Part shown: positions 48,307-62,270 of the stretch, piece by piece
Numbering within the stretch: position 1 is the first letter of the stretch
Layout of the letters: the number at the start of each line of letters is the position of its first letter
From: Clostridia bacterium
GTDB lineage: Bacteria > Bacillota > Clostridia > Oscillospirales > Acutalibacteraceae
Direction: 5' to 3'
Length of the DNA stretch: 64,000 bases
Assembly (NCBI GenBank): GCA_017516745.1
Contig: JAFXBF010000003.1
Span: 1-64,000 of the forward strand
Program-made: the position numbers and the translations under genes
Notes under the pieces: model-generated
Told to the model about the DNA's origin: nothing
Database searches by the model: none
What the model saw: only the letters and a program-made list of their open reading frames with translations

Positions 48307-49569
48307 ATGATAAAAAAGATTACCGCTTTTCTTCTTGTGTTTACTCTTGCTTTCTCGTCCCTTGCGATAAGCTCCTATGCCGTAAATGACAGCAAAACGG
48401 ATTATCCCTACATATTTGTTCACGGTATGGGCGGGTGGGCACCCGATAACAGGTTTTATTCTCTTTCGCCTTATTGGGGCGGCGGTCTCGGCCTGAATGA
48501 TACCGACCTTATCAAAATACTCAACGAAAAAGGAATTGAAGCTTATGCGCCTGCTGTCGGCCCATTGAGCAGTGCTTGGGACAGAGCCTGTGAGCTTTAT
48601 GCACAGCTTATGGGCACGGTTGTCGATTACGGCGAGGCTCATTCCAAAGCCCACGGACACAACCGCTACGGCTTCAGCTATGAGGGCAAGGCGGTTATGG
48701 GCGAGCCCTGGAATATGAAGGGTAAAATTAACCTCGTCGGCCATTCCTTCGGCGGCGAAACGGTAAGGCTTTTTACCTCTCTTATGGCTTTCGGCTGTGA
48801 GGAGGAGCTTGCCGCAACGGGTGAGGATACAAGCGAGCTTTTCAAGGGCGGTCACGACAGCGTTCACGCCTGCATCACTCTTTCAAGCCCTCACAACGGC
48901 TCACAGGTTGCAAACTACCTTGTTGACCCACAGGTGACTATGCTCCTGCTCGCAACGGCACTTAATGCTCTGGGCGGTATTTTCGGCAATAATTTTCTCG
49001 TTTTCTCCTTCCAGTTAAGTCAGTTCGGGCTCACACCTTCGCAGGATGAATTCCGAGCCCTGCCCGATTTCAAGGGTATATATAACTTCTGCAAATATAA
49101 TGACAACTGCGGCTATGATATGACTCTCCGGGGTGCAAGAGAGCTCAACGAAAAAATCAAGCTCGCTCCCAACACATATTACTATTCATATTCAACCGCC
49201 GCAACAAAAGAAGGTCTTTTTGGTCTGCAGTATCCCATAAGCTCACTCAACCCGATTTTCTATATTTCGGGTGCAATGCTCGGTCTCACAACGGGTATGA
49301 CAATTGACGGAATAAAAATTGAGGGCGACTGGACAGTTAACGACGGAATTGTACCGCTTGCCTCTGCTCTCTATCCATCAACGGATGCCGCAACAGCCCG
49401 TGATTACGAGGAAGCAATTGCCGCAGGCGAAAAAATCAAGCCCGGCAGATGGTACTACCTCGACACAATGTACGGCACAGACCACTTCGATTTCTGCGGC
49501 ACAAAGGACTACCCAACAACCTTTGAGGACTTCTACTTCGGAATGATAGAAACCGCAAACAGCAGATAA
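48307..49569 (+). CDS. Secreted family I.5-like lipase
   Basis: Extracellular triacylglycerol lipase/esterase of 420 aa. A signal peptide (1-25) precedes the PYIFVHGMGG oxyanion block. The nucleophile is S147 in GHSFGG, the acid probably D346 (VNDGIVP) and the base H393 (TDHFDF). Zinc-site residues of Geobacillus-type lipases are kept as D92, H112 and H118. The fourth position (Asp in that family) is Ser238. It is paralogous to the lipase domain at 53433. AAAGGAG precedes the ATG. Confidence 0.88.
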   Translation: MIKKITAFLLVFTLAFSSLAISSYAVNDSKTDYPYIFVHGMGGWAPDNRFYSLSPYWGGGLGLNDTDLIKILNEKGIEAYAPAVGPLSSAWDRACELYAQLMGTVVDYGEAHSKAHGHNRYGFSYEGKAVMGEPWNMKGKINLVGHSFGGETVRLFTSLMAFGCEEELAATGEDTSELFKGGHDSVHACITLSSPHNGSQVANYLVDPQVTMLLLATALNALGGIFGNNFLVFSFQLSQFGLTPSQDEFRALPDFKGIYNFCKYNDNCGYDMTLRGARELNEKIKLAPNTYYYSYSTAATKEGLFGLQYPISSLNPIFYISGAMLGLTTGMTIDGIKIEGDWTVNDGIVPLASALYPSTDAATARDYEEAIAAGEKIKPGRWYYLDTMYGTDHFDFCGTKDYPTTFEDFYFGMIETANSR

Positions 49570-53295: not shown

Positions 53296-53313
53296 TGTAA
53301 AGCCGGGTTTACA
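53296..53313. promoter_or_regulatory. 18-bp palindromic operator candidate
   Basis: TGTAAA-N6-TTTACA, centre GCCGGG, lies midway between the divergent amylase and HTH-lipase promoters, 26 bp upstream of the amylase -35. It has the size of a dimeric XRE regulator site. A second perfect palindrome ATTTTTTCGAAAAAAT is at 53327-53342. Confidence 0.5.
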
Positions 53314-53382
53314 CGCAAAATTATATATTTTTTCGAAAAAATGCAAATTCCAACCCGACTTGCTGGACTTTTTTACCCGATT

Positions 53383-53392
53383 GCTATACAAT
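53383..53392 (+). promoter_or_regulatory. Extended -10 promoter of HTH-lipase gene
   Basis: TGCTATACAAT (about 53382-53392) forms an extended -10. The best upstream match, TTGCTG at 53360-53365, is 19 bp away, so the -35 is weak. Start about 40 bp before the ATG. Confidence 0.5.
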
Positions 53393-53432: not shown

Positions 53433-55070
53433 ATGAATTTAGGTGAAAGAATATTAGACCTGCGCAAAAAGAGCGGTCTTTCCCAGGAGGAGCTTGCCGA
53501 AAAATTAGGCGTGTCACGCCAGTCGGTTTCAAAATGGGAAACGGGTAACGTTATGCCCGATATTGACAAGGCTGTTGCAATGTGTGAGCTTTTCGGTGTA
53601 ACAACGGATTACCTTCTCAAGGGCAAGGCAGACCACGCAAGCGCAGTATATAACGATGTTCTGGAAGAAGAAATTATCGGCGAAATTCCCTGCGATGAAG
53701 AGGACGAAGCTGCCGAAATCCACGCAGACTCAACGGAAACTCACGATGTAAAGCCGCCTTTACATGAGGAAGAGAAGGATAAAAAAGAAGAAAAGCCTGC
53801 CTATCTCAAAGCAATTGCAGGTGTGCTTGCGGTTATTCTTGTTTTTGCAATAATTCTGCCCATTCCGCTCGGCGGATACAAAAGGCTGTGGGCAAAGTTT
53901 ACAGAGCCGCCTGTTGCCTACCCGTACGTGCTTGTTCACGGTATGGGCGGTTGGGGCGAAGGCGCAGGCATCAACAGCCTTTCACCCTATTGGGGCTCGG
54001 TTACGGGCAGCCTTTCAGCTTACCTGCGCTCAACAGATATAAAGGTTGCGGAAGCCAATGTCGGCCCGTTTTCAAGTGCGTGGGACAGAGCTTGTGAGCT
54101 TTATGCCCAGCTTACGGGTATGAGGGTTGACTACGGTGAGGCACATTCAAAAATCCACGGCCACGACCGTTACGGAAAAACATATACAACAAAGCTCGTC
54201 GAAGGCTGGGGTGATGAAACTGAAGGCGGCCAGCTTCAGAAAATCAATCTCATCGGCCACTCCTTCGGCGGTAATACAATCCGCCTGCTCACAAGTCTGC
54301 TTGAATACGGCAGCCCTGAAGAACAGCAGGCAAGCGGTGACGAGGTTTCCGAACTTTTTACAGGCGGTAAGGGCGAATATATCAACAGCGTTACAACCCT
54401 ATGTTCACCGCATAACGGCTCAACTCTTTACTATGTCGTGGACAGATACAACCTTATTCAGACAGCACTCGGTGTGCTCTATGCCGCAGGCGGTGTGACG
54501 GATGTTATCGAAGGCGGACTGATAGATTTCAACCTTGACCACTTCGGCATCCAATCGGGCACAAGCGAAACACTTTCGCTTATCAATCAGAAATTCAGCA
54601 CAGGCACAGATAATGCCTTTTACGATTTGTCGCCGCACGGTGCTGCTGAGCTCAACAAAACAATAAAAACGGTTGACAGCGTCTATTATTTCTCCTACGC
54701 CTATTGCACAACGGATAAATCCGTGCTTTCAAATCATCAGATTCCGAGAAAATCCACTCTGCTCGTGCTTATGCCCGTTGCAACACTTATCGGCAGATAT
54801 ACAAACACAAGCGACTCTGCAGCAATAAAAATTGATGAAAGCTGGCTTCCAAATGACGGCCTTGTAAATGTCGTCTCCGCACAGTGTCCGAGCGATGAAG
54901 AAATGTTCAGTTACACCGCCGATACTGAAATCGAGCGTGGCAGGTGGTACGTTTTCCCCACTCTTGAAGGCGACCACGGCACGGTAATCGGTATGAACGG
55001 TAACGTGCAGAAAACCCACAGCTTCTATACCGACCATATGGCAATAGTCGATGCCCTCCCCAGAAACTGA
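53433..55070 (+). CDS. XRE-type HTH regulator fused through one membrane span to a lipase domain
   Basis: 545-aa protein of unusual layout. Residues 3-62 are an XRE helix-turn-helix (GLSQEELAEKLGVSRQSVSK). Residues 75-122 are a charged cytoplasmic linker. Residues 124-146 span the membrane, and residues 163-545 are a complete family I.5-like lipase outside the cell. Catalytic residues are S277 (GHSFGG), D475 (LPNDGLV) and H515 (EGDHG). Zinc ligands D218, H238, H244 and D369 are all kept. The frame is continuous. The ATG at 53433 follows GAGGTG. A paralogous secreted lipase lies at 48307. A lipid-sensing one-component regulator is the inferred role. Confidence 0.85.
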   Translation: MNLGERILDLRKKSGLSQEELAEKLGVSRQSVSKWETGNVMPDIDKAVAMCELFGVTTDYLLKGKADHASAVYNDVLEEEIIGEIPCDEEDEAAEIHADSTETHDVKPPLHEEEKDKKEEKPAYLKAIAGVLAVILVFAIILPIPLGGYKRLWAKFTEPPVAYPYVLVHGMGGWGEGAGINSLSPYWGSVTGSLSAYLRSTDIKVAEANVGPFSSAWDRACELYAQLTGMRVDYGEAHSKIHGHDRYGKTYTTKLVEGWGDETEGGQLQKINLIGHSFGGNTIRLLTSLLEYGSPEEQQASGDEVSELFTGGKGEYINSVTTLCSPHNGSTLYYVVDRYNLIQTALGVLYAAGGVTDVIEGGLIDFNLDHFGIQSGTSETLSLINQKFSTGTDNAFYDLSPHGAAELNKTIKTVDSVYYFSYAYCTTDKSVLSNHQIPRKSTLLVLMPVATLIGRYTNTSDSAAIKIDESWLPNDGLVNVVSAQCPSDEEMFSYTADTEIERGRWYVFPTLEGDHGTVIGMNGNVQKTHSFYTDHMAIVDALPRN

Positions 55071-55244: not shown

Positions 55245-55321
55245 GGGCCATTAGCTCAGTTGGTTAGAGCAACCGGCTCATAACCGGTCGGTCCGGGGTT
55301 CGAGTCCCTGATGGCCCACCA
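55245..55321 (+). tRNA. tRNA with CAU anticodon (Met or Ile2)
   Basis: 77-nt cloverleaf with encoded CCA. The acceptor GGGCCAT pairs with ATGGCCC, the D-arm is GCTCAGTTGGTTAGAGC, the anticodon loop CTCATAA and the T-arm GGGTTCGAGTCCC. CAT reads Met, or AUA if C34 is modified by TilS (gene at 4365). The identity elements were not decisive by eye. Confidence 0.95.
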
Positions 55322-55331
55322 AATTTAATAT

Positions 55332-55407
55332 AGGGGTATAGCTCAGTTGGTAGAGCAGCGGTCTCCAAAACCGCGTGCCGAGGGTTCAAGTCCTTCTGCC
55401 CCTGCCA
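55332..55407 (+). tRNA. tRNA-Trp (CCA)
   Basis: 76-nt cloverleaf with encoded CCA. The acceptor AGGGGTA pairs with TGCCCCT, the anticodon loop CTCCAAA has anticodon CCA, and the T-arm is AGGGTTCAAGTCCTT. Its 3' end faces the integrase of the element downstream and is the probable integration target. Confidence 0.96.
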
Positions 55408-55616: not shown

Positions 55617-56807
55617 TTAAATTATAAAATTATTCATTACCGCATCCTTATAACTATCAAATATGCTTACATAAATCCTTGCTGTAAAAGCGGGATCACT
55701 GTGTCCTAAAAGTTTGGACACGAGTTCAATCTGACCCTTTGAATGCATATAAGCCATAGAGGCGAAGGTGTGTCTGAGGGTATGTACTCCGCATTGCTTT
55801 ATTCCGGCGTATTTAAGAATGGAATAAAACCTTTTATCAAAGCTTCTTTCGCCGAAAATTGCGCCGTTAGGTCCATGTATTATAAGTCCGTCATATCCTT
55901 CGGGCTCGGCTGCTTTCAGTTCTTTGATAATGTTCAATACCTCCGGATTGAGCTTCATCTTTCGGATGGAGTTGTTGGTTTTGGGTGTTTGTACATACCG
56001 CTTTTTCTTTCCGGTGCTTTTTCCGTTTTCATCACGCTCTTTAACCGCAGTGACGGTTTTGTTAATATGATACACACCGGTTTCAAAATCGATATCGGAA
56101 TACTTTGTTGCAAGTGCCTCACCAAGTCTTATCCCTGTGTTAAGCATAAAGATAAAGAAAATACCTTGGTGAAATCTATTAACTCCGTTTTTATACTTTG
56201 CTGTACACGCTTTCTTGAATCTTTCGATTTCGTCATTGTTGAACACAATGATCTTTTCTTTTTCTTCCTCATCTTCATTGATGATAGTTTTGTCAGCTTT
56301 CAGTGTGATAAGCCAAACCGGATTAAGTTTTGCCATATTGTTTGCAACGGCAAATTTGAAAAAATCGGACAAAAAATCCTTTGTCTTCTTCTGTGTGCTG
56401 TACTTATATCCTTGATTCTTGACATAATCAAGAACAGCTTGTGCTGCGTAAACATCAAAATCACTAATCTTTGTAATGCCAACATAGTCTAAAGCTGGAG
56501 AAACCTGATATTTGAAAGTTTGCTCCAAACGGTCAAATGAACTGCTTTTCACCTTGTTAATTTTGATTTTATACAGCCACTTTTCCATTTCAGCTTTAAG
56601 TGTACAGCCATTCTTGTCATAGCTCTTAGGATTCCAATCCTGTAGGAAGTCATCTCTTTTGGCTTTAACATCGCTTCTGGTTTTTCCGTAAAGCGATTTT
56701 GTGATTTTTTTGCCTGTCAGTCCATCAATACCCAAGGTCAGTTCACAACACCAACGATCATCCGATTTTCTTCGGTATATCGTATCCTTTGGTTTTTCGT
56801 AATACAT
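55617..56807 (-). CDS. Tyrosine recombinase (integrase)
   Basis: 396-aa phage/ICE-type integrase. An N-terminal arm-binding AP2-like part (DRWCCELTLGIDGLTGKKI) and a SAM-like core-binding domain precede the catalytic domain. Catalytic residues are the Arg in GIRLGEAL, HTLRHTFA (His-x-x-Arg), the His in LLGHSDP and the nucleophile Tyr in ARIYVSIF. It points toward tRNA-Trp 210 bp away, as expected for the element's att end. AAGGAG precedes the ATG. Confidence 0.93.
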   Translation of the reverse strand: MYYEKPKDTIYRRKSDDRWCCELTLGIDGLTGKKITKSLYGKTRSDVKAKRDDFLQDWNPKSYDKNGCTLKAEMEKWLYKIKINKVKSSSFDRLEQTFKYQVSPALDYVGITKISDFDVYAAQAVLDYVKNQGYKYSTQKKTKDFLSDFFKFAVANNMAKLNPVWLITLKADKTIINEDEEEKEKIIVFNNDEIERFKKACTAKYKNGVNRFHQGIFFIFMLNTGIRLGEALATKYSDIDFETGVYHINKTVTAVKERDENGKSTGKKKRYVQTPKTNNSIRKMKLNPEVLNIIKELKAAEPEGYDGLIIHGPNGAIFGERSFDKRFYSILKYAGIKQCGVHTLRHTFASMAYMHSKGQIELVSKLLGHSDPAFTARIYVSIFDSYKDAVMNNFII

Positions 56808-57474: not shown

Positions 57475-58536
57475 TTAATTGAACGGTGAATAAGTAACGT
57501 AGCCGTCTTTTACTTTTTTAAATCCGAGTGTTGACGATATGTGCTTCTTTACGGTATTGACCGATATATCCAAGACATTTGCTAAATCTGAAATCTTCGC
57601 TGTGCCGTCATCGCTTTTGATGTTCTTATAAGCACTAATCAACTTTTCTGCTTTCTGCTTTTTTGCGTTTTTTGACTTTCTGAATAGATCATCTTTAGTG
57701 TTGAGGTTCTGATATTTTGAGGAATCGATGCTAAAAATGCCGTCTTTGAAAATGACATTAAGCGGCGGATGCGGTGGGAAATGTCTTGAGACAATTTTAA
57801 TATGTTCCTTTTTACAGTCGTTCTTCTCATATACTCTTGTTATGCCTACGAGAGTCTGAGCGTACCTGCCAAAAATTGATGAACCTGAAATCATATCAAT
57901 AGAGCTTGTATATCCTTCAGTTGCCTTTTTAACATGATGGCAAAGAATTATTGAGGACCGTAAAGCGGCAGCCAGTCTGTCCATCTCTTTCATAAAATGA
58001 TCAACGTCTTCAGACTGACTTTCGCGACCGTTTAAAAAGTTATATACAGAATCAATAATAATTGCACTATACAAGTCCGATTGAACATTTTCAATCATTG
58101 CGTTAACAAATGATGTTGTTTCAGTATAGCCATTCATATTTGTAACTGTGATATGATTCATGCAATCCTTACTGATTGAACGATTTTGACAAATTTGTTC
58201 AATACGCTTATAAGTTTCAGCTGCGCCATTTTCAATGTCACAAATGAAAACGTTACCGCATTCGCATTTGTGCTCAAGCCATTCTCCGCCGCAGGCAATG
58301 GCAATAGCAAGGTCAGCAGTAAGATATGATTTGCCTGCTTTTGCCGGACCGTACACAATCATCTTATGTCCTCGATGCAGCAACCCGTTAATAAGAACAG
58401 GAGCAGGCAAAACATAATCTTCAACCTTGTTAAGCGGCATAGCATCAAAAAGCTCGGTTTTGAAGTGCAGCTGAGAAACATCCGGTAAATTACACGGATT
58501 TATTACCGGAGCAGATTCTGTAACAAGGTTCATCAT
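57475..58536 (-). CDS. RepA/RecA-fold replication ATPase
   Basis: 353-aa P-loop ATPase of the RepA/KaiC-like hexameric helicase group. Walker A is YGPAKAGKSYL, Walker B IIIDSVYNF, and sensor-like LCHHVKKATEG is typical. The C-terminal 60 residues form a winged helix (KISDLANVLDISVNTVKKHI). Probably the element's replication or mobilisation helicase. 3 bp downstream of the DUF669-like gene, so cotranscribed. Confidence 0.8.
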   Translation of the reverse strand: MMNLVTESAPVINPCNLPDVSQLHFKTELFDAMPLNKVEDYVLPAPVLINGLLHRGHKMIVYGPAKAGKSYLTADLAIAIACGGEWLEHKCECGNVFICDIENGAAETYKRIEQICQNRSISKDCMNHITVTNMNGYTETTSFVNAMIENVQSDLYSAIIIDSVYNFLNGRESQSEDVDHFMKEMDRLAAALRSSIILCHHVKKATEGYTSSIDMISGSSIFGRYAQTLVGITRVYEKNDCKKEHIKIVSRHFPPHPPLNVIFKDGIFSIDSSKYQNLNTKDDLFRKSKNAKKQKAEKLISAYKNIKSDDGTAKISDLANVLDISVNTVKKHISSTLGFKKVKDGYVTYSPFN

Positions 58537-60504: not shown

Positions 60505-61134
60505 ATGCAGAATCAGTTTAATGATATTTTTTCTCACAGAGAATTACTTAGCTTAGCTTCAATTGTACAAGTTGGTGATGCAACATACCATGATTTAGTA
60601 AAATCGCAACAATTAATGTTTGACCACCCTTATTTCAATGATATAAGAGGTAGAATTAGGACTAAACTTGTACAGATGCAATGTGAAATTGAGAGTCACG
60701 ATCCTATGTTTCCATTTGAATTTGTGCAGCGCGAGTTTAAGTATAAGCAGATGATTCCTGAACTTAGAAGCAAAAATGCAATTATACATATAGCACGAAG
60801 CAAGTCGCCTGATGTGTTGCCATATGCTTCAAAATATAAAATTAACCTTTCAAACAATAACCATACATTATATCGACAGATGGTTTTTGATCTCAAGCAA
60901 ACTCCACCATATAGTGAGGAACCTTATTATGCTCTTCTAACTTTCGGCGGTTCTATTAACCCTTTTTCAGCTATCCAGTTTCCCGAACCTGGTTATACTG
61001 GTGTTGCAGAGAGTTTGCCTCTCCCTCAATTTGTCTTAAGCAATGAGACCGAAAATGCGCAGATTTTTGAGCGTAAGAAAGCTGCTTTAAAACAGAAGGT
61101 TTTAGACATTGGAATCAAGGAGATAGTTTCATGA
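60505..61134 (+). CDS. Hypothetical partner of XRE/ImmA-IrrE protein
   Basis: Not recognised. A 209-aa soluble protein, mixed alpha/beta, with EEPYYALLTFGGSINPFSAIQ and a C-terminal helix. GCAAAGGAG precedes the ATG. It overlaps the next gene by 4 bp (ATGA) and shares its promoter. The arrangement is like a two-gene toxin-antitoxin or defence unit, in which this would be the effector or target of the metallopeptidase. Confidence 0.7.
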   Translation: MQNQFNDIFSHRELLSLASIVQVGDATYHDLVKSQQLMFDHPYFNDIRGRIRTKLVQMQCEIESHDPMFPFEFVQREFKYKQMIPELRSKNAIIHIARSKSPDVLPYASKYKINLSNNNHTLYRQMVFDLKQTPPYSEEPYYALLTFGGSINPFSAIQFPEPGYTGVAESLPLPQFVLSNETENAQIFERKKAALKQKVLDIGIKEIVS

Positions 61135-62270
61135 TAAATTTGATTATACCCTCACGAATAACCGAAGCTCGAGAAGCACGCGCAATGTCAATGGAAGATC
61201 TGGCTGAAAATATTGGTGTTACAAGACAGGCTATTTCCAAATATGAAAGGGGTATTACAAGCCCCTCTCCTGAAATGTTGCAGGCAATTTCTTATAGCTT
61301 GAGTTTCCCTTTGGATTTCTTTTACAAAACTGAGAAAAAAATTAATGCTGGTAGCAGTTCTTTGTTTTTTCGTTCAAATTCTAATATACCAAAGAAAATA
61401 AAAAATGCTTGCAAATATCAAATTAAATGGACTGATGAAGTTAAGAAACAGCTGGAGGAATATGTTGATTTTATCGAACGAGATGTGCCAACTATAGATA
61501 TCGAGTATAACGATTTAACATTTGATGATATTGAAGAAATGGCATTGAGTATTCGAAGAGAATGGGGATTAGGTGACGAACCGATAGGTGATTTAATTGG
61601 TGTATTAGAGAACAGAGGCATTATCATAACGCAATTTGCTACAAATAAGTTTTGCGAATTTAAAGGAATAGACGCATTTTCTTGTTGGAAAGACGGAACT
61701 CCGTACATTATATATCATTCTATCACCAAAAGTGCAGTTCGAACACGATTTAGCATTTTACACGAATTAGGCCATTTGATAATGCATAACTCTATTTCAG
61801 AAAGTGACTCATTAAAGAAAGATATAGTTGATTTTGCGGATATGCAAGCAGACAGATTTGCTGCAGCTTTTTTACTACCAGCAACTTCATTCCCTAATGA
61901 TATACGAAGTACATCTTTAGTTTCTTTAGAAGCTGTTAAACGAAAATGGGGAGCTGCGATGTCTACAATCATCAGACGTTGTGAAACTTTAGAGTTATTG
62001 ACAGATAATCAAGTTAACTATTTAAAGCGTCAAATGACCACACAAAAGTACTGGCATAAAGAACCTTTAGATGATGTTTTGAATATTCCTGCTCCAGAGA
62101 TTTTGCGTGATGCTATTTATCTTTTAATTGATAATGGTATAATTACTAAGTCATCTTTTATAAATTCATCAGCTTTATCTACAAACGATTTAAAGTATAT
62201 TTGTGGCTTGCCAGATGCTTTTTTCGATGAATGCGATCAACGCAAAAAGCCCGCTTTGCGATTGGTTTAA
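61131..62270 (+). CDS. XRE-HTH plus ImmA/IrrE metallopeptidase
   Basis: 379 aa. The N-terminal XRE domain (SMEDLAENIGVTRQAISKYE) is at residues about 18-70. The central ImmA/IrrE domain has the zinc motif HELGHLIMH and a following ADRFAAAFLLP, where the third-ligand position reads Asp-Met-Gln-Ala rather than the common Glu. A helical C-terminal region follows. Known relatives cleave repressors in phages and ICEs or act in defence pairs. No ribosome site of its own; translation is coupled to the upstream gene. Confidence 0.87.
   Translation: MINLIIPSRITEAREARAMSMEDLAENIGVTRQAISKYERGITSPSPEMLQAISYSLSFPLDFFYKTEKKINAGSSSLFFRSNSNIPKKIKNACKYQIKWTDEVKKQLEEYVDFIERDVPTIDIEYNDLTFDDIEEMALSIRREWGLGDEPIGDLIGVLENRGIIITQFATNKFCEFKGIDAFSCWKDGTPYIIYHSITKSAVRTRFSILHELGHLIMHNSISESDSLKKDIVDFADMQADRFAAAFLLPATSFPNDIRSTSLVSLEAVKRKWGAAMSTIIRRCETLELLTDNQVNYLKRQMTTQKYWHKEPLDDVLNIPAPEILRDAIYLLIDNGIITKSSFINSSALSTNDLKYICGLPDAFFDECDQRKKPALRLV

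Follow-up and report, generated by a model that had tools for sequence, protein, structure and literature searches.

A predicted transmembrane regulator with a lipase ectodomain in uncultured Clostridia and its candidate operator sites

The fusion gene and its neighbours

The window studied here, i.e., the whole analysed stretch of 64,000 nucleotides from a Clostridia bacterium contig, contains a gene whose product joins an XRE-type helix-turn-helix (HTH), a membrane span (TM) and a lipase domain in one chain. The gene and its parts are the following:

53433..55070, + strand: HTH-TM-lipase gene, a single ORF with an ATG start, 545 aa
53433..53630, + strand: XRE helix-turn-helix, residues 1-66 (HTH_3; recognition helix SRQSVSKWE)
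53631..53801, + strand: acidic linker, residues 67-123, fast-evolving as judged by dN/dS
53814..53870, + strand: single predicted membrane span, residues 128-146 (Kyte-Doolittle mean 2.89)
53916..55067, + strand: lipase domain, residues 162-545 (from Lip_C, PDB 5ah0 and conservation)

The frame runs uninterrupted from the ATG at 53433 to the stop at 55070; the mechanically called ORF opens 18 nt earlier, at an in-frame TTG. In the Pfam comparison, HTH_3 (residues 9-61, E 3.3e-18, 65.9 bits against a cut-off of 23) and Lip_C (PF24708, residues 163-523, E 1.2e-56, 192.5 bits against a cut-off of 27) were the top matches of the protein. Among the PDB sequences, the N-terminus matched XRE repressors, including P22 C2 and 434, and residues ~162-538 best matched lipases (5ah0 with E 1.8e-69, 8yye, 5ah1 and Geobacillus-type enzymes). 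The model for YSIRK-targeted staphylococcal lipases (NF047351) gave 246.6 bits, below its NCBIfam cut-off of 650. The catalytic S277, D475 and H515 and the metal positions D218, H238, H244 and D369 are all present in the 545-aa protein. An earlier sequence-only reading had described an N-terminal HTH, a linker, a single span and a full lipase in one uninterrupted frame, and the ORF, Pfam and Kyte-Doolittle analyses confirm this description; the label “family I.5” for these lipases comes from that reading.

Directly 3′ of the fusion gene lie the genes for tRNA-Met (55245-55321) and tRNA-Trp (55332-55407), followed on the minus strand by those for a phage-type integrase (55617-56807) and an AAA_25 protein (57475-58536); by its sequence, the segment 55245-58953 looks like an integrative element at tRNA genes. 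On the other side, 4 kb upstream and on the same strand as the fusion, 48307-49569 encodes a free Lip_C lipase of 420 aa with a signal-peptide-like start. Besides the fusion, the genome contains at least four further relatives of the lipase domain.

Spread, conservation and phylogeny of the fusion

The full-length architecture was found in 8 of the 11 genomes of the genus (46-100% identity) and in at least 7 of 250 genomes of the family, the latter number being a lower bound because N-termini were read only for the loci fetched in that search. A scan of contigs from named genomes revealed the HTH on at least 22 loci, among the 80 of 104 related loci that were kept. Their hosts are all uncultured Clostridia, Oscillospiraceae or Ruminococcaceae, and their sources are ruminant gut (15) and horse faeces (1), with six given without a source. 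The set used for comparison comprised 127 lipase loci, leaving out the duplicates L104, L107, L011 and L013 and the HTH-less loci L022, L024, L033, L037, L078 and L084; it includes 33 distinct HTH-lipase genes, all from uncultured Clostridia, with many rows related, so that counts over loci are not counts of independent events. Thus, the case that the sequence-only reading had set against itself, a fusion with no homologue of the same build, is not what the genus genomes and the lipase loci show. A frameshift, a misassembly or a chance fusion was ruled out by the identical frame in independent assemblies from many hosts.

The active site is strongly conserved. S277, D218, H238 and H244 are invariant in all 33 HTH-lipase proteins, and D475 and H515 are kept in 32 of the 32 rows long enough to include them. 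Position 369 is D in 22 of the 33 proteins, E in 10 and Q in one; therefore, the claim that all four zinc positions are kept holds for the 545-aa protein and is not strictly true of the family. One span was predicted in each of the 29 fusion proteins examined, a set also used below for charge, linker length and shuffling (30 fusions were known at that stage, and L093 was left out). For six pairs of relatives, dN/dS was 0.04-0.19 in the HTH and 0.04-0.14 in the lipase; it was 0.22-0.49 in the linker (computable in four of the six pairs) and 0.015-0.21 in the span plus stalk (five of the six). Judged by these ratios, both the HTH and the lipase are held by purifying selection, and the linker drifts.

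When the 127 lipase domains were placed in a tree, all 33 HTH rows grouped with six HTH-less members (L091, L066, L067, L070, L074 and L076) in a single clade of 39 rows (SH-aLRT 97). Placed on this tree by a quick method and with several forks left open, the HTH label requires four changes, which fits one gain of the HTH followed by about three putative losses. The six HTH-less members of the clade can thus serve as a natural control for promoter sites, since the HTH was probably lost there.

Candidate sites O1 and O2 and the genes behind them

Upstream of the fusion gene, two sequence elements and an inferred -10 box were located, and one of the elements recurs within the gene:

53296..53313, no strand assigned: O1, perfect palindrome TGTAAA-N6-TTTACA, 137 nt 5′ of the ATG
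53348..53366, + strand: O2, degenerate, with the left half TTCCAA, N6 and the arm TTGCTGG; two mismatches to the pattern
53387..53392, + strand: inferred -10 box TACAAT, with the O2 arm starting 27 bp before it
53747..53764, no strand assigned: second exact O1 copy, within linker codons, the only other exact copy in the window

In the genus, O1 is found upstream of the fusion gene in seven of the eight fusion-bearing genomes, with differing N6. Over the whole set, an exact O1 lies within 300 nt upstream of 24 of the 33 fusion genes vs. none of the 93 HTH-less lipase genes whose upstream DNA exceeds 150 nt; these genes were taken to begin at the first Met of their frame, so that the upstream region may be misplaced. 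The fusion gene L090 was scored as lacking an exact O1 because its site, at -302, exceeds this distance. After shuffling of the upstream regions, 0.002 genes on average had an exact O1, compared to 22 observed in 29. When O1 or O2 was accepted with at most one mismatch, 31 of the 33 fusion genes bore a site (the start of L103 being placed too late in this count) vs. 0 of 93 HTH-less genes, and the six HTH-less members of the fusion clade had neither O1 nor O2. These data bear on the proposal of the sequence-only reading that the protein is a one-component transmembrane regulator acting on DNA: its DNA part gained support, since sites of the kind present at 53296-53392 track the HTH, and they fall inside the segment 53270-53430 that had been named for DNA binding.

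The coupling between recognition helix and site is not strict. The two fusion genes lacking O1 and O2 at one mismatch are L016, with the helix SCRTVSDWE and no match to either site even at two mismatches, and L105, with SRQAVSKWE. The helices of L094 (SRQTVSGWE) and L096 (SRQTVSSWE) are altered, yet both genes have an exact O1, and L065, L247 and L110 combine the common helix with the presence of O2 and the absence of O1.

Genome-wide, the 11 genus genomes contain 20 exact O1 sites (six with the reversed pattern as a control), seven before fusion genes, three inside them, four before genes of a family we refer to as GYP, one before a DUF5104 gene and five elsewhere. The copy within linker codons recurs in two further genomes (G002 and G006) and is absent from the other fusion genes examined for it. 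In 16 other fusion-bearing genomes, 28 exact O1 sites were found (control 18), of which 16 lie before fusion genes (in 15 genomes), one before GYP and 11 at neither; given these 11 and the control value, scattered single O1 sites are to be regarded as background. Two more exact O1 sites may be mentioned. One (G005:C63:73359-73376, L045:11360) lies ~500 nt upstream of the O1 nearest to a fusion gene, with no convincing gene between them. The other (G000:C28:19271-19288, L051:9272) lies just before a gene for a 124-aa membrane protein, DUF4064-like below the cut-off, which is followed by an XRE gene with the helix SRQTIIAIE; there, O1 may be due to chance or shared.

Side-by-side comparison of the upstream regions defined O2 as a TGTAAA-like left half, six bases and the arm TTGNTNG. 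Both the arm and a -10 box were found in 28 of 33 fusion promoters and in all nine GYP promoters, compared to 1.23 of 42 in shuffled sequences, and 8 of 94 HTH-less lipase promoters passed a looser test for the arm and the -10. Of the 37 promoters having both, 36 show a distance of exactly 27 bp from the start of the arm to the -10, and the remaining one a distance of 26 bp. The five fusion promoters failing the arm test (L248, L103, L098, L130 and L016) each show, by eye, an arm-like stretch 27 bp before a -10; these were excluded from the count. In the 26 promoters with an exact O1, the O1-O2 distances fall into three groups (32-36, 41-45 and 52-53) lying, by inspection, about one helical turn apart, with spacings shared by related promoters.

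Assuming that transcription starts 7 nt after the -10, O2 is centred at about -42, which would be the place for an activator touching RNA polymerase at this putative site. The -35 boxes range from a weak TGGACT at the window's fusion gene to a fair TTGAAA in several promoters, and a -35 of TTGAAA needs no activator; given this range, repression from O2 may also occur.

A scan of the genus with O2 alone returned mostly GYP and fusion promoters, plus unrelated sites. Among these are O2-like sites before a gene for a 417-aa secreted-looking protein (G005:C20:6345-6363, L283) and before a 210-aa XRE gene (G003:C10:92841-92859, L258), which may represent further targets or a related regulator. A looser composite pattern matched in 163 of 398 genomes and is therefore too noisy for listing a regulon. 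Ten regions were chosen by eye from its matches, and five of them have a full promoter before a gene (two in G311, one each in G376, G332 and G185); the similar promoters in these four genomes, all of which contain an HTH-lipase, precede small membrane-protein genes. One more region has a full promoter at a contig end (G410, in whose genome the fusion was not detected), and the remaining four (in G066, G350, G144 and G206) were unconvincing on inspection.

GYP is an uncharacterised family of 229-247 aa with a hydrophobic N-terminus, followed by a domain that is probably located outside the membrane. None of the seven members scanned reached the cut-off of any Pfam family, and the best match among PDB sequences (E 0.38) was not convincing. 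The nine GYP promoters analysed (three in G001 and one each in G000, G002, G005, G006, G268 and G311) all have O2, along with an exact O1 in five, O1 with one mismatch in three and with two in one; a distant GYP-like gene in G230 has neither site. Five of the 11 genus genomes and three of the 250 family genomes have GYP, all of them fusion-bearing, as are G268 and G311; three of the eight fusion-bearing genus genomes (G003, G007 and G008) are devoid of GYP. In the window's own genome, the GYP gene lies on a contig separate from that of the fusion:

G000:C10:2067-2783: GYP gene

In G001, the composite promoter also precedes the DUF5104 gene adjoining the fusion gene. A second, tandem GYP copy in G006 (G006:C57:15343-16079, L054) looks broken because it is split over two overlapping frames.

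Proposed working, alternatives and known relatives

The protein is very probably a membrane-anchored one-component regulator acting on DNA, as judged from its domains and the sites described above. The HTH must be inside the cell because DNA is met there. Related free lipases start, by eye, with signal-peptide-like stretches, and hence the lipase of the fusion is most likely outside. In 26 of 29 homologues, the side preceding the span holds more Lys and Arg than the side following it, and in three the numbers are equal; the net charge follows the positive-inside rule in 24 of 29; in the 545-aa protein, the net charge is 0 before the span and +2 after it, against the rule. On balance, we favour a one-component regulator in the membrane that probably activates its own gene and a few genes for surface proteins and whose ectodomain is the lipase. 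Comparison supports the DNA side well; lipid sensing, catalysis and the sign of regulation are inferred, the lipid half being argued from the conserved active site, which is compatible with either sensing or cleavage of a lipid signal. Likewise, binding of O1/O2 by the fusion's HTH, activation over repression, orientation in the membrane, enzyme activity and a lipid signal are all putative.

Mechanistically, the XRE domain would reside in the cytoplasm and bind the composite operator, with O1 upstream and O2 beside the -35 region, and the linker and the single span would tether it to the secreted-type lipase on the outer face. A lipid ester bound or turned over by the lipase may then alter receptor pairing and thereby the occupancy of O1/O2, raising synthesis of the protein itself, of GYP chiefly, and of other membrane-anchored or extracellular proteins. 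We tentatively suggest that an active surface lipase signals its catalytic state (acyl-enzyme, or occupancy by substrate or product) via the span to the XRE domain, thus switching a private regulon. As tentatively, this regulon may consist of GYP and other small surface proteins behind the composite promoter, along with the fusion gene itself. If true, this would amount to a circuit in which one chain both digests and senses lipids in gut Clostridia.

The alternative that survives best, still an unlikely one, is a surface lipase under dosage control, whose HTH sets or represses its own expression, while no outside signal ever reaches DNA. In 6 of 16 fusion-bearing genomes, the sole exact O1 of the genome is indeed at the fusion gene, conservation of the catalytic positions matches that in free lipases, and O2 abuts the -35 region, a place open to a repressor as well. 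The composite promoter is, however, not private to the fusion gene, being present before all nine analysed GYP genes, the G001 DUF5104 gene and small membrane-protein genes in four genomes; moreover, for such control a cytoplasmic repressor would do, making the fusion superfluous.

It is rather improbable that the lipase fold serves as a binding-only receptor that is catalytically inactive in the cell. Enzyme-derived domains can turn into sensors, as the BlaR1-type receptors show according to the available part of the source, but degenerate sensor domains usually lose catalytic residues, whereas here, in every row reaching them, the catalytic Ser, Asp and His and three metal positions are unchanged (n = 33 proteins). 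Still less probable is a cut within or close to the span that would release the regulator. Membrane regulators are reported to work by regulated proteolysis in some cases (PMC7593790), but full-length CadC binds DNA uncut via a 50-residue linker (PMC5936718, likewise in part), and the linkers of the fusions examined here comprise 28-81 residues.

The least credible alternative is a RodZ-like role, with the HTH binding protein and another XRE paralogue using O1/O2. In RodZ, which also combines an HTH with a span, the HTH binds MreB, and the genome has 54 HTH_3 matches, but the sites track the HTH within one lipase clade, its HTH-less members included, and L016, with its altered helix, lacks both sites (a single case). 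Among the 25 of 30 Pfam families listed, the fusion shows neither an HTH_25-type HTH nor the RodZ C-terminal domain, both of which mark RodZ.

The preferred reading, a transmembrane regulator with a lipase ectodomain, fits into a class that is recognised and widespread (PMC10269533); a word search of the main text of this article gave zero occurrences of XRE, lipase, enzym- and hydrolase. The earlier statement that its author knew of no such system stands in part: no XRE-span-lipase regulator was found in the openly licensed literature among the top-ranked matches listed, while transmembrane regulators as a class are well described. What is new is the likely operator O1/O2. With the ToxR/CadC type, the fusion shares an N-terminal DNA-binding domain, one span and a C-terminal domain that is most likely outside, and its linker resembles that of CadC, which is disordered, ~50 residues long and acts in the full-length protein (PMC5936718, available part); it differs in that an XRE (HTH_3) domain takes the place of the winged HTH and a complete lipase fold that of the dedicated sensor domain. 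Secreted lipases of the clostridial/Geobacillus type (5ah0, 5ah1, 1ku0; Lip_C) have the whole lipase domain with its catalytic and metal positions in common with the fusion, where the HTH and the span replace the signal peptide.

BlaR1 is the nearest enzyme-derived receptor known to us, and it works differently. BlaR1/MecR1 also carry a serine-enzyme-derived outside domain on a membrane receptor; BlaR1 works via a metalloprotease domain, as the available part of the source has it, in contrast to the fusion, whose DNA-binding domain is in the same chain, with one span. BlaR1 acts via a separate repressor. The fusion has one span only and, among the 25 of 30 Pfam families listed, no BlaR1-type metalloprotease domain. 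Repressors of the lambda/P22/434 type share the HTH_3-type fold, an 18-bp palindrome and two sites, one of them near -42; unlike them, the fusion is membrane-anchored and bears a lipase domain. For Vibrio cholerae, an effect of a dietary fatty acid on TcpP by way of TcpH is reported (PMC11323476), so that gut lipids as an input to this class would not be without parallel.

Only a minority of transmembrane regulators have a known input; here, an apparently complete enzyme with a definable substrate class forms the presumed outside domain. With a recognisable enzyme domain and a likely DNA target mapped to the base, both ends are testable with simple reagents, which would offer a handle on lipid perception by uncultured gut Clostridia and on the new surface-protein family GYP.

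Other XRE proteins of the same genome may be mentioned. At 61131-62270, adjoining the gene for a 209-aa protein (60505-61134), a 379-aa protein with an XRE-type N-terminus and a HELGH motif is encoded, which looks, by eye, like a regulator-peptidase. A 692-aa XRE frame with five predicted spans (L197:435-2510) and other XRE proteins with spans indicate that XRE-membrane fusions are not rare in this genome.
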